A stretch of 56,856 bases of DNA from Leptolyngbya sp. BC1307 (GTDB taxonomy: Bacteria > Cyanobacteriota > Cyanobacteriia > Phormidesmidales > Phormidesmidaceae), in assembly GCF_002286735.1 (NCBI RefSeq), contig NZ_NRTA01000027.1, positions 1 through 56,856 of the forward strand. Direction: 5' to 3'. Positions 49,744 through 53,742 of the stretch are shown here, piece after piece. The translations under genes and the position numbers were made by a program. Within the stretch, counting starts at the first letter, position 1, and each line of letters opens with the position of its first letter. The notes under the pieces were generated by a model. That model saw only the letters and a program-made list of their open reading frames with translations, ran no database searches and was not told the DNA's origin.

Positions 49744-50652
49744 CTACTCAAACCCAAGCAGGTCGAAAATATCTCTATCTTTGAGGGGCTCTATTTCAAG
49801 CGGCGTGGCGTCTTCGATCATGCCTTTGGCAAGCTTTAGATACTCGTCTCGAACTTCTTGAATTTCAGGATCAGAGTCTTCCATTTCGAAGACGGTGCAT
49901 TTCTTCAGGCGGCTGCGGCGAATGGCATCTACCGTCTTAAAGTGGGCCAGGGTTTTAAGACCGACGCGCTCGTTGTACTTGTCAATTTGATCGGTGCCCT
50001 CACTGCGGTTGGCAATGATGCCGCCTAAGCGAACCTTGTAGTTTTTAGCTTTTGAGCGAATGGCGGCGACAATCCGGTTCATTGCAAAGATGGAGTCAAA
50101 ATCGTTGGCAGTCACGACCAGGCAATAGTGGGCGTGCTGTAGGGGAGCGGCAAAGCCACCGCAGACGACATCTCCTAACACGTCGAAGATTACCACATCA
50201 GTATCTTCGAGCAGATGATGCTCTTTTAGCAGTTTGACAGTTTGCCCAGTGACATAGCCACCGCAGCCGGTGCCTGCCGGGGGGCCGCCCGACTCAATGC
50301 ACATGACGCCGTTGTAGCCTTCAAACATGAAGTCTTCGGTTTGCAACTCTTCTGAGTGAAAGTCAACGGTTTCGAGAATGTCGATCACCGTGGGCACCAT
50401 TCTTTTGGTGAGGGTGAAGGTGCTGTCGTGCTTGGGATCGCAGCCGATTTGCAGGACACGCTTGCCGAGATGAGAGAACGCGGCTGACAGGTTAGAAGAG
50501 GTGGTGGACTTGCCGATGCCGCCTTTGCCGTAGACGGCGATCACCAGCGCGCCGGTCTCGATGTTCATGGAAGGATCTTGATGAACCTGAAGGCTGCCTT
50601 CGCCGTCTTCACCTTTTTTGATAGCGGGGGGACGAGTGTTTGTAGCTACCAC
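49744..50652 (-). CDS. chlL: Light-independent protochlorophyllide reductase, ATPase subunit L
   Basis: This NifH-like dimeric ATPase passes electrons from ferredoxin to the ChlN-ChlB core in dark chlorophyll synthesis. P-loop [19 protein letters not shown] and the 4Fe-4S cysteines ([16 protein letters not shown] and [16 protein letters not shown]) are intact. The start is GTG at 50652 with AGGAG upstream; 302 residues. The N-terminal extension [20 protein letters not shown] and blocks such as [20 protein letters not shown] and [18 protein letters not shown] match purple-bacterial BchL and marine Synechococcus/Prochlorococcus ChlL, as I recall them, rather than the usual cyanobacterial and plastid ChlL, which starts at the P-loop. 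It is last in the chlN-chlB-chlL operon. Confidence 0.97.
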
Positions 50653-50710
50653 AATTAAATCTCCTGTTTAAATTCTGAATGAATGAGTAAGCGTCTAAGG
50701 TATTCGCCTG

Positions 50711-52387
50711 TTACTTGCCGATCGCTGCCTTGGCCTCATAGAGCGTGTCTACCGTAATCGAGGTGATGCCGCGATCGCTCGCAAACTTTTCTGTATTTCG
50801 CTTCACTTTGCCGCGTACGAAGAAGGGAATCTTCTTCAGCTCAGCTTCGCCATCTGCACTCCAACTGAGGCTAACAGCATCGCTGGGCTCACCCTCAGTT
50901 GGCTGCAGATCAGCGGTGATGGCCATTGGTTCGGCCACCGCGACCGCAACGCCGCCACCGCTCGTGCCCGCTGTCGGATGAGGAGCCGTATGCAAGTGGC
51001 TCATATGCCCCTCGGCAAACTCGAAGTCTTCGCGGAACATGCCGATCAAGTGCTCTTCTAGGCCCATCATTAGCGGGTGAACCCAGTCGTCAAAGATCAC
51101 ATTGGCCCCTTCCCAGCCTATTTGGGGTGAGTAGCGAGCGGGCACGTCTTGAACGTGAATCGGCGTGGAAATGACCGCACAGGGAATGCCCAAACGCTTG
51201 GCGATATGGCGCTCCATTTGGGTGCCTAGTACCAGCTCGGGAGAGGCTTCGGCGACAGCTTCTTCTACCGCTAAGTAATCGTCGCTGATGACAGCTTCTA
51301 ACCCGTATTGCTTGGCGACTTCGCGCACTTGCCGGGCAAATTCTCGGCTGTAGGTGCCGATGCCGACCAGGGTAAAGCCCAGTTCTTCAGTGGCAATGCG
51401 GGCAGCGGCGATCGCATGAGTCGCATCCCCAAAGATAAACACCCGCTTACCCGTCAGATAAGTTGAGTCTACAGAGCGCGAATACCAGGGCAGCCGAGAC
51501 GCGCCGGGGTTAGCCATTGATGACAGCCGGTCTGCGCTCCAGTTGCCTAGCGTATCAGCCTGCGATCGCCTCAGCGCGGCACTGACATCAATATTGGCAA
51601 CTTCACCAATTTCAGCGATAAAGTCGCGAGTGGCTCCGACGCCAATCGGCACGGTTTTGACTGTCGGCTGCTTAAAGCTGCGTTCTAGCCACTTGCAGGT
51701 GGTCAAAGCGATTTCGGGATAGAGGCAGATATTAAAGTCTGCGTCGGGAATGCGCATCAAGTCGTCAGGCGTTGCGCCCAAAGGAGCGATCACGTTGGCA
51801 TCGACGCCAATCTCTGCGAGCAGCTTAAGCACTTCTTGAATGTCATCGCGGCAGCGAAAGCCTAAAGCCGTAGGGCCGATGATGTTTGCCTTAGGGCGAA
51901 TCGCCGGATCGCGTTCGGGCCGACTTGCGCCAGGGGGGAGCACTGCCGAAAGGAGAAGCGATCGCACCAGATGATACAGCGTTTCGCTAGCGCCCCAATT
52001 TTCTTTTTTAGAATAGGCGGGCAGCTCTAGACTCACTACCGGGATCGGCAAGCCCATGCTTTTTGCCAGTGAACCCGGCTGATCTTGAATCAGCTCAGCG
52101 GTGCAGCTTTCACCCACCAGCATCACCTGCGGCTTGAACCGATTGTAGGCATCGCGCACCGAGGTTTTCACCATCTCTGCGGTATCTCCGCCCAAGTCTC
52201 TTGCCTGGAAAGTGGTGTAGGTGACGGGCGGACGGCGATCGCGCCTTTCAATCATCGTAAACAGCAAGTCGGCGTAGGTATCCCCTTGAGGCGCGTGCAG
52301 CACGTAATGTACGCCTTCCATCGCGGTAGCGATACGCATCGTTCCTACATGGGGCGGGCCTTCGTAAGTCCACAGGGTCAATTCCAT
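50711..52387 (-). CDS. chlB: Light-independent protochlorophyllide reductase subunit B
   Basis: This is one half of the catalytic NB component, related to NifK. It has 558 residues and starts [20 protein letters not shown]. The cluster-ligand region is [20 protein letters not shown]; the [15 protein letters not shown] and [19 protein letters not shown] blocks follow. The final 50 residues ([20 protein letters not shown] onward) form the small C-terminal domain. A low-complexity His/Thr/Gly/Ala insert (about 470-490) makes it longer than usual. Wording is BchB-like, as in marine picocyanobacteria. It lies 68 nt after chlN and 58 nt before chlL. Confidence 0.97.
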
Positions 52388-52455
52388 AGTTAAAGCGTAT
52401 AGTTAAAGTTTTTTAGCGGGGCGTCTTAAAAGGCTCAATGCAATCGGCGCTCACT

Positions 52456-53742
52456 TCAAACGGTTAGCCGCCTGCGTCTTTCTGAGGAACGGACAAACAG
52501 TTCGGCCAGGTCAGCCGCCTGGTCGTAGCCATGCAGCGGCGAAAAGACCAGCTCAATTGACCATTTCGTAGACAGCCCTTCGGCTTCTAACGGATTGGCC
52601 AGCCCTAACCCACAGACGGTAATATCCGGGCGGGCTTCGCGGCAGCGGTCGAGCTGTTTCTCTACGTCTTGTCCTTCCGACAGCGCAGTTCCGGCAGGCA
52701 GCAGACTAATTTCTGCGTCCATCAATAGCCGGTCGATGTAAGGCGTGCCGACTTCGATCAGCTCCATGCCGCATTCTCTAGAGAGAAACCGAGCTAATGG
52801 AATTTCTAACTGCGAATCTGGAAAGAGGAACGCTTTGCGGCCATTCAGTACCTTCTGATAGCGCTCTAGTCCGGTTTTAGCGCGGCTGACGGCGGGTGCG
52901 ATCGCCCCTTCAAAGCGCTCTTGATCAATATTCCAAACATCTGCCGCCGTTCTTAGCCAGGCCGTTGTCCCTTCTACGCCAAAAGGATAGGGCGATGGCA
53001 GCAGTTCCGCGCCCCGCTTCATCAATAGCCGCACCGTCTCACTCAAGAATGGCTGAGCCACCAAAAGCTTTGTCCCTTTACCGACGCTGGGCAAGTCGGC
53101 AGCGCGACGCGGCGGGAAGAAAGCGACCGGGCCAATGCCCATCTGATCAAAAAGACGCTTGAACTGATCTTCTACAACATCGGCCAGACTGCCGACTACC
53201 AGTAGGGCAGGCTCATCATTGCTTTTGCTCGGCAAGACTGGCACCATCGAACCCAGGCAGGCATCTTCGCCCTGCGTAAAGGTGGTTTCGATGCCGCTAC
53301 CCGAATAGTTGAGAATTCGCACCTTGGGGAAGTAGCGATGATTCAGCCTTTCGGCAGCTTTAGCAAGGTCTAGCTTAATCACTTCCGAAGGGCAGGAACC
53401 GACTAGAAATAGCGTGCCAATGTCGGGCCGACGGCTGAGAAGCTGCTCGACGACGCGCTCTAGTTCATCATTGGCATCGGCTAGACCAGCTAGATCGCGC
53501 TCGCCTAAAATGGCTGTGCCAAATCGGGGTTCGGCGAAGATCATGACGCCAGCGGCTGACTGAATCAGGTGCGCGCAGGTACGAGAGCCCACCACCAAAA
53601 AGAACGCATCCTGCATCTTTCGGTGTAGCCAGACGATCCCCGTCAGTCCGCAAAATACTTCTCTCTGCCCGCGCTCTTTAAGAACGGGCAAATCGGCAGT
53701 GATTGTTTCGGGAGGCGTTTCGGTACAAGGCTGTAGCGCCAT
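52456..53742 (-). CDS. chlN: Light-independent protochlorophyllide reductase subunit N
   Basis: This subunit forms the NB heterotetramer with ChlB and supplies three cysteines to the shared 4Fe-4S cluster: [32 protein letters not shown] and [13 protein letters not shown]. Its 428 residues are shorter than the roughly 460 of typical cyanobacterial ChlN and nearer to the BchN and picocyanobacterial form. It is first in the operon. The spacer upstream holds a likely regulated promoter. The complex is oxygen-sensitive in most organisms. Confidence 0.96.

Follow-up and report, generated by a model that had tools for sequence, protein, structure and literature searches.

How does an oxygen-evolving cyanobacterium come to carry a chlorophyll-synthesis enzyme of the kind known from anoxygenic phototrophs, and what became of the native enzyme? 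The question is raised by a contig of Leptolyngbya sp. BC1307 (NZ_NRTA01000027.1, 56,856 nucleotides; the whole of this stretch is called the window below). On its minus strand, at 49744-53742, lie the adjoining genes chlN, chlB and chlL for the dark-operative protochlorophyllide oxidoreductase (DPOR). A preliminary description, made from the letters alone, had found the set to resemble bacterial BchNBL and proposed horizontal acquisition or replacement of the native DPOR. Both parts of that proposal are supported here, the replacement by physical scars: an orphaned DUF5331 gene and, in the distant genome G318, a chlL remnant. We conclude that the BchNBL-type set very probably entered the ancestor of the window's genus as a unit, replaced native chlL, chlN and chlB, and spread between cyanobacterial lineages.

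Results

All three genes are open and full length and follow one another in the order N-B-L, as first described. The first, chlN (52456-53742, 428 residues), scores 620.9 bits against NF002768 and 500.8 bits against TIGR01279; chlB (50711-52387, 558 residues) scores 610.6 bits against TIGR01278 and, at 893.5, stays below the cut-off of 912 for NF002790; chlL, the BchL-type Fe protein (49744-50652, 302 residues, GTG start), passes TIGR01281 at 441.2 bits. NCBIfam calls all three genes DPOR subunits on these profiles. The closest solved structure for each product is the Prochlorococcus DPOR 2YNM (ChlL 539.6, ChlB 792.1 and ChlN 585.9 bits), with the Rhodobacter proteins next (452.4 bits between R. 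sphaeroides BchL and the window ChlL), and the native cyanobacterial structure 2XDQ scores 335.9 bits for ChlB and 249.5 bits for ChlN. The whole genome (222 contigs, 99.99% complete, 0.12% contamination) contains one ChlL, one ChlN and one ChlB, all of BchNBL type, so that a search for a second, native-type set, suggested in the preliminary description, came back empty; one light-dependent protochlorophyllide oxidoreductase (LPOR) is also present above its cut-off. From their families, the three genes are predicted to encode a DPOR of the BchNBL kind, and open reading frames (ORFs), profiles, motifs and trees concur that the set is complete and BchNBL-like.

Motifs separate this type from the native one. 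They were counted in the fetched sequences, comprising 19 filamentous loci of BchNBL type, 18 picocyanobacterial, 24 anoxygenic and 17 native loci. The ChlL motif NDFD occurs in every filamentous, picocyanobacterial and anoxygenic locus (19/19, 18/18 and 24/24) and in none of the native ones, which read DNGFD (17/17). DGEGS, present in the window, is found in 18/19 filamentous, 18/18 picocyanobacterial, 20/24 anoxygenic and 0/17 native ChlL; the sole filamentous locus without it, that of G318, reads ESEGS. The counts in the same order are 19/19, 18/18, 8/24 and 0/17 for ChlL [11 protein letters not shown], and 18/19, 18/18, 15/24 and 0/17 for VDFHxE, while Chl[11 protein letters not shown][VI]G is found in 19/19, 18/18 and 15/24 loci of the three BchNBL-type groups. 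The motifs put forward at the outset as purple-bacterial and picocyanobacterial features are therefore real and separate the types, with one correction: the full VDFHSEELQ block is present in 13/19 filamentous loci and in no picocyanobacterial (0/18), anoxygenic (0/24) or native (0/17) locus, making it a marker of the filamentous clade and not of BchL at large. Native ChlB, said to start MKLAYWMYAG, begins MKLAYWMY[AS]GPAH in 10/10 examined, and chlB, said to lie apart in freshwater cyanobacteria, is absent from 17/17 native chlL-chlN neighbourhoods (L165-L178, L182-L184; at least 4 kb on each side).

The BchNBL type is patchily distributed. A ChlL query matched all seven genomes of the window's genus at 90-100% identity and none of the 56 other genomes of its family above 323 bits, seven of these 56 lacking a full ChlL of either type. 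Inheritance of one type across sister genomes, which the preliminary description had set against acquisition, thus holds for the genus and fails for the family. The genus is tied to Phormidesmis priestleyi Ana by a 3-kb probe of L066 that is identical in G001. Over the class, a ChlB query found the BchNBL type in 97/388 genomes: the 7 of the genus, 24 of genus g36, G329 (record PHFO01000026), G132 (record CALGDE010000027), G318 and 63/63 of family f2; native ChlB among the matches listed is 34-38% identical to that of the window. We name g36 Pseudanabaena from the position of L067 inside its clade and from flank genes of L065/L067 that are common to its loci, not from identity, and call f2 picocyanobacterial from the grouping of G087, G347 and G389 with named Prochlorococcus, Synechococcus and Cyanobium.

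Within f23 (38 genomes) the BchL type is carried by 24/26 genomes of g36 and 1/3 of g103, and the other nine comprise six native genomes and three without a full ChlL; the two g36 genomes with neither type are only 76 and 82% complete. Elsewhere it occurs in 1/6 genomes of f19 and in 1/192 of f32, which may be Nostocaceae and has five genomes without a full ChlL. In f23 and f19, for which every ChlL match was listed, no genome with both DPOR types turned up, and a native ChlL query returned nothing above 61% identity in 18/18 BchL-type genomes, with 88-100% in 5/5 native genomes. Because BchB and BchL types occur in the same 24 g36 genomes (24/24 agree) and the order is N-B-L in 19/19 filamentous loci, it appears that the enzyme is exchanged as a whole.

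Several carriers or their relatives show irregularities. In G318 a TnpB-like gene (L157:8795-10057; IS200/IS605 type by eye) stands between chlB and chlN and splits chlN from chlBL. In G004 (L148) chlN and chlB are each spread over two frames and chlL is shortened, perhaps through assembly errors; the assembly is rated 7% contaminated, and with its genes split G004 was omitted from the trees. A full ChlL of neither type was found in G212 and G270 (g103, 97-98% complete) or G142 (g61, 93% complete), each with a genus mate of BchL type, and a complete loss of DPOR is possible in these three.

The replaced operon has left traces. A DUF5331-family gene lies between chlL and chlN in 9/9 native loci fetched from the family, its identity being tested with Pfam PF17265 on the G000 and G318 copies. 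All seven genus genomes keep DUF5331 apart from the new genes (for example, outside the window, at G000:C2:162050-162382/L249:7018-7401, minus strand), and it is intact in the six loci read. Its neighbours are identical in 6/6 fetched genus loci (gyrA, an HDAC-family gene, gene X, DUF5331), and the native family member G014 reads gyrA-HDAC-X'-chlL-DUF5331-chlN, X and X' being homologous (26%, E 9e-20). The ratio of nonsynonymous to synonymous change (dN/dS) of the orphan gene is 0.02-0.05 in five genus pairs, with synonymous sites near saturation, and two pairs were not computable; the gene appears to be under purifying selection. Since it is conserved without its operon partners, its function cannot depend on native DPOR alone.

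A second scar is found in G318, whose DNA aligns with that of native G223 until ~0.5 kb before chlL and resumes near the chlL 3' end; ~40 codons of native chlL are still open directly 5' of its orphan DUF5331, and no native chlN was found at that locus. G132 has a weak DUF5331 match (43%) on a different contig from the acquired genes. The same query matched none of 8/8 Pseudanabaena genomes, nor their native family mate G154, so f23 is uninformative on scars. No chlB scar was located, and the scar evidence concerns chlL-chlN.

Trees place the set away from its hosts. Relatives came from a contig scan and are the best 80 of at least 581 (at least 593 stretches), so closer donors may lie outside. 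A first tree of 66 rows, 58 of BchNBL type (including 38 of the 80 relatives) and eight native, the latter with ChlL and ChlN only (eight separately fetched native ChlB were not included), parted the two types on a branch with support 100, whose length stood at 5 and of which the split alone was used. The concatenated tree has 47 rows, 11 rows and all native rows being dropped. In it one 100/100 clade, hereafter filamentous, unites the window's group with G132, Pseudanabaena, G318 and G329, and the picocyanobacteria form their own 100/100 clade that excludes the window's group; the window set does not nest among picocyanobacterial DPORs in this tree. The nearest anoxygenic rows among those used are the Gemmatimonadota metagenome-assembled genomes (MAGs) Gem_S07 and Gem_Prado135, not Proteobacteria, and a 99/98 node unites these MAGs with the filamentous and picocyanobacterial groups. 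The single-gene and rpoB trees are quick trees with support from the approximate likelihood-ratio test (SH-aLRT) only, and truncated L110, L117 and L138, scored there as native, are counted here with the BchL type. The filamentous clade is recovered by each gene (N 100, B 100, L 98), and the picocyanobacterial clade has a support of only 1 with ChlL alone.

By rpoB the genus falls within its own family (95; 99 for its grouping with G008), Pseudanabaena groups with members of its family, and G318 joins native G223. Phylogeny, the check first suggested for the DPOR, thus bears out a conflict with rpoB and a position away from the native type. Within the genus the DPOR tree resembles the rpoB tree, G002 pairing with G003 in both. 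Together with the 7/7 carriers, this pairing makes it most likely that the set was gained no later than the base of the genus, so that the window genome would have inherited it. Trees in which Pseudanabaena, alone or with G329, forms a group without G318 are rejected by the approximately unbiased (AU) test (p 0.00004 and 0.00013), and transfer from a Pseudanabaena-like donor to G318 is therefore significant. The small tree used for this test drew a warning for its long picocyanobacterial branch, which lies outside the tested question, and in it, unlike in the concatenate, an unsettled fork separates Psan_G177 and G329 from the remaining Pseudanabaena rows. A purple bacterium is not required as the immediate donor to the genus: its set is most closely related to those of Pseudanabaena-type filamentous cyanobacteria.

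Divergence rates point the same way. Compared as uncorrected protein identities, the ratio of DPOR (ChlL+ChlN) to rpoB distance is 0.97 for native pairs and, for the BchNBL type, 1.70 between members of the genus, 3.83 between Pseudanabaena genomes and 0.84 in 60 pairs that cross lineages. The window and G003, of the same genus, share 94.7% of rpoB and 88.0% of ChlL+N; the window and Pseudanabaena share 84% and 85-88%; G318 and Pseudanabaena G206 share 84.1% and 95.3%. High divergence within genera with low divergence across lineages is most simply read as movement of the three genes between lineages after their separation.

Composition is close to that of the surroundings. GC content is 55.1% in the set and 52.4% in the rest of the window, and GC at third codon positions (GC3) is 0.58-0.62 against a median of 0.58 for 29 window ORFs. 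The HIP1-rich character of the genome, remarked on at the outset, is borne out by 67 sites of this repeated palindrome in the window for ~1 expected from base composition, six of them inside the DPOR set. With values so near ordinary, GC and codon use are uninformative as a test of foreignness; taken with the six HIP1 sites, they fit an old acquisition or a HIP1-rich cyanobacterial source.

The window ChlL carries the parts expected of a BchL-type Fe protein. It has the Walker A sequence GKGGIGKST and, in the span 50161-50265, the expected [4Fe-4S] ligands Cys130 (50263-50265) and Cys164 (50161-50163), identified from sequence and 34 residues apart like Cys126 and Cys160 of R. sphaeroides BchL (numbering from PMC7948495). 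An N-terminal extension (residues 1-35, 50548-50652) is absent from native Chl[10 protein letters not shown] at 50581-50607, and the DFD patch (residues 184-186, 50095-50103) stands where native ChlL has GFD. Asp36 of ChlB occupies the position expected for the Asp ligand of the NB cluster. The intergenic gaps of 68 and 58 bases suggest that chlN, chlB and chlL are co-transcribed. From its position alone, the intergenic region 5' of chlN (53743-53961) is the presumed location of the promoter, and a scan of its minus strand found no sigma-70-like site.

Among neighbouring genes, ftsY stands just 5' of chlN in G001 (L145:6540-8279) and a few kb 5' in seven Pseudanabaena loci (e.g. L151:14528-16249); as it is only ~56% identical between G001 and Pseudanabaena, we do not regard it as a recent passenger of chlNBL. 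In two distant genomes, G005 (L149:2-1100) and G318 (L157:13097-14306), the acquired genes have psbP and maf in their vicinity, by chance or at a preferred site. At the contig end of the window, ~2.7 kb from chlN, is a fragment of an ISAzo13-type DDE transposase (PF07592; 56476-56796, minus strand).

Discussion

Taken together, the results suggest the following course of events. The BchNBL-type set would have entered the ancestor of the Phormidesmis-like genus as one unit and taken over; native chlL, chlN and chlB would have been lost, DUF5331, the middle gene, alone staying in place. The same cassette would have passed among the Pseudanabaena type, the window's genus, G132, G329 and, with statistical support, G318. 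In the cell, ChlL is predicted from its family to act as an ATP-driven Fe protein that passes electrons to a ChlNB heterotetramer, which would reduce protochlorophyllide to chlorophyllide without light, alongside the light-dependent LPOR (reaction and subunit roles as outlined in the review PMC4500134).

Several observations weigh against this account. Of the nine native family loci only that of G014 has gyrA beside it, the other eight lacking gyrA in the stretch fetched, and no remnant of native chlL or chlN was found beside DUF5331 in six genus loci by tblastn up to E 1. Of the single genes, ChlL (83) yields the node uniting Gemmatimonadota, filamentous and picocyanobacterial rows, but ChlN and ChlB do not. 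The genus is not a clade in the N or B trees and reaches 60 in the L tree, with G132 inside or beside it (genus plus G132: 99 for ChlN, 93 for ChlB), so there may have been more than one transfer. Neither GC3 nor codon use, comparisons asked of the set from the start, gives a foreign sign for chlN and chlB; chlL ranks 27th of 29 in codon distance, but it is the shortest of the three. Finally, chlNBL flanks vary among most genus members (L145-L150; 45000-56856 in the window), which simple vertical inheritance does not explain. Flanks are common to G002 and G003 and among Pseudanabaena genomes, with little in common otherwise, and a common insertion site is unsupported. Set against the DUF5331 locus, syntenic in 6/6, the variable flanks suggest that the acquired cassette relocates.

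The ultimate source is less certain than the replacement. Filamentous cyanobacteria and picocyanobacteria may have taken BchNBL-type DPORs independently from different anoxygenic phototrophs, a possibility that we regard as serious if somewhat doubtful. The union of the two groups is weak (85/62), and a tree joining the filamentous clade to Gemmatimonadota withstands the AU test (p 0.48); ChlN by itself also gives this grouping (79), as does ChlB by itself, there with no support (0). CsoS2, of the alpha-carboxysome, is found in 3/3 picocyanobacteria and 0/12 filamentous-type genomes, which fits separate histories without proving them; co-transfer with the alpha-carboxysome was accordingly not seen. 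On the other side, the best concatenated tree joins both cyanobacterial groups, as does ChlL alone (44). That each filamentous lineage made a capture of its own is not credible, because no anoxygenic row falls inside the 100/100 filamentous clade. Somewhat more readily, but still tentatively, we entertain a fuller version: cyanobacteria other than the picocyanobacteria would have gained the three genes from a Gemmatimonadota-like source, independently of the marine event, and the cassette would now circulate as a unit between oxygenic cyanobacteria, displacing the native enzyme at each arrival and stranding DUF5331 wherever the native operon contained it. If so, an autoinhibited BchL-style Fe protein would have been favoured, not shunned, in some oxygen-evolving cells.

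That the cyanobacterial ancestor had both DPOR types, lineages losing one or the other without any transfer between them, is very unlikely and already disfavoured. It could draw on the moderate identity of DPORs across families (85-88% for ChlL+N between window and Pseudanabaena), native ChlL being likewise 88-89% identical between families. It needs, however, very many parallel losses to leave 0/56 carriers in the rest of the family and 1/192 in f32, and a long co-existence of the two types, yet none of 18 genomes tested has both. Nor does it suit divergence that is fast within genera and slow across lineages, or the nesting of G318 in Pseudanabaena (AU p 0.00013) beside its native genus mate G223. 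Contamination of the assembly by an anoxygenic phototroph, to which the 222 contigs might lend some colour, can be practically dismissed given the HIP1 sites and ordinary GC3 of the operon, the low contamination and high completeness with no native DPOR elsewhere, the occurrence of this DPOR type also in G002, on a contig of 4.7 Mb, and in G111, on its only contig, and the DUF5331 scar.

Viral and phage carriage is not supported: no ChlB relative was detected in viral contigs at the sensitivity of the scan (four pattern matches, none a relative) or among 50,697 phage records. Plasmids gave ten records with ChlL matches of 60-80% identity, all from Proteobacteria with annotated bch genes; below 60% there were 252 records, mostly nitrogenase genes among those shown, including three Nostoc records that were not inspected.

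The BchL character of the acquired Fe protein gives the replacement a possible functional side. In R. sphaeroides the BchL N-terminus is flexible, contains the conserved DGEGSVQVH and covers the [4Fe-4S] cluster, slowing the reaction before ATP is bound; coupling of ATP to the dimer falls to a DFD patch. The same study names P. marinus as the one exception among cyanobacteria, whose ChlL otherwise lacks this autoinhibitory segment, and proposes that the contrast may be related to whether the organisms live with oxygen (PMC7948495). The window ChlL has DGEGSLQVH and NDFD, and native ChlL has neither. By analogy with R. sphaeroides, a capping segment would have come along with the set, and the acquired ChlL may be gated as BchL is. 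Oxygenic lineages of a second set, including one detected in Antarctic soil (PMC5165242), thus have the BchL type without the native type, and G318 with G223, or the genus with the rest of its family, offer natural pairs for comparing DPOR designs.

In summary, this is a well-marked new case of a known kind of event. The grouping of P. priestleyi Ana-like ChlL among proteobacterial BchL with marine unicellular cyanobacteria was reported in 2016 in a paper that refers to Gupta 2012 for shared indels (PMC5165242). We found no description, in open-licence full texts, of the complete set in filamentous cyanobacteria, of its occurrence in Pseudanabaena, of the scars or of passage from one cyanobacterium to another. 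The case is a clear example of a multi-subunit enzyme replaced whole with its scars still legible, and cautions against treating chlL, chlN and chlB as markers of vertical descent in cyanobacteria. DUF5331, stranded yet conserved without native DPOR, is a testable puzzle.

Four known systems can be set beside the window. Native cyanobacterial and plastid ChlLNB (2XDQ) has the same reaction and subunit roles and only ~53% (ChlL) and ~36% (ChlB) identity; its ChlL begins directly before the P-loop, reads DNGFD where the window has ANDFD and ends in a variable C-terminal tail, and its chlL and chlN lie together, with DUF5331 between them in 9/9 family loci and chlB elsewhere (17/17 loci). The Antarctic soil ChlL reads belong by name to the same ChlL group as the window but are amplicons of 321-348 bases only, and the part of PMC5165242 available gives no account of N and B, Pseudanabaena, a lost native operon or spread between cyanobacteria.

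The DPOR of Prochlorococcus and marine Synechococcus (2YNM), acquired by transfer from outside the cyanobacteria according to PMC7842958, is like that of the window in its BchL-like N-terminus and NDFD (18/18) and in the contiguous N-B-L arrangement of 23/27 complete loci fetched. It differs in forming a separate 100/100 clade and in a ChlB identity to the window of 65-74%. In the four remaining loci, L091, L099 and L102 (Prochlorococcus) and L111 (Synechococcus), chlL is divergent from, or ~1.2 kb off, chlNB. BchNBL of Proteobacteria and Gemmatimonadota (Rhodobacter 3FWY/6UYK, Gemmatimonas MAG L071) shares with the window the sequence type, the N-terminal segment and the order N then B. Its bchB and bchL are separated by 2.9-4.2 kb in 38/40 loci with both, presumably the place of bchH, and are adjacent, as in the window, in L090 and L139; its hosts are anoxygenic, unlike that of the window.

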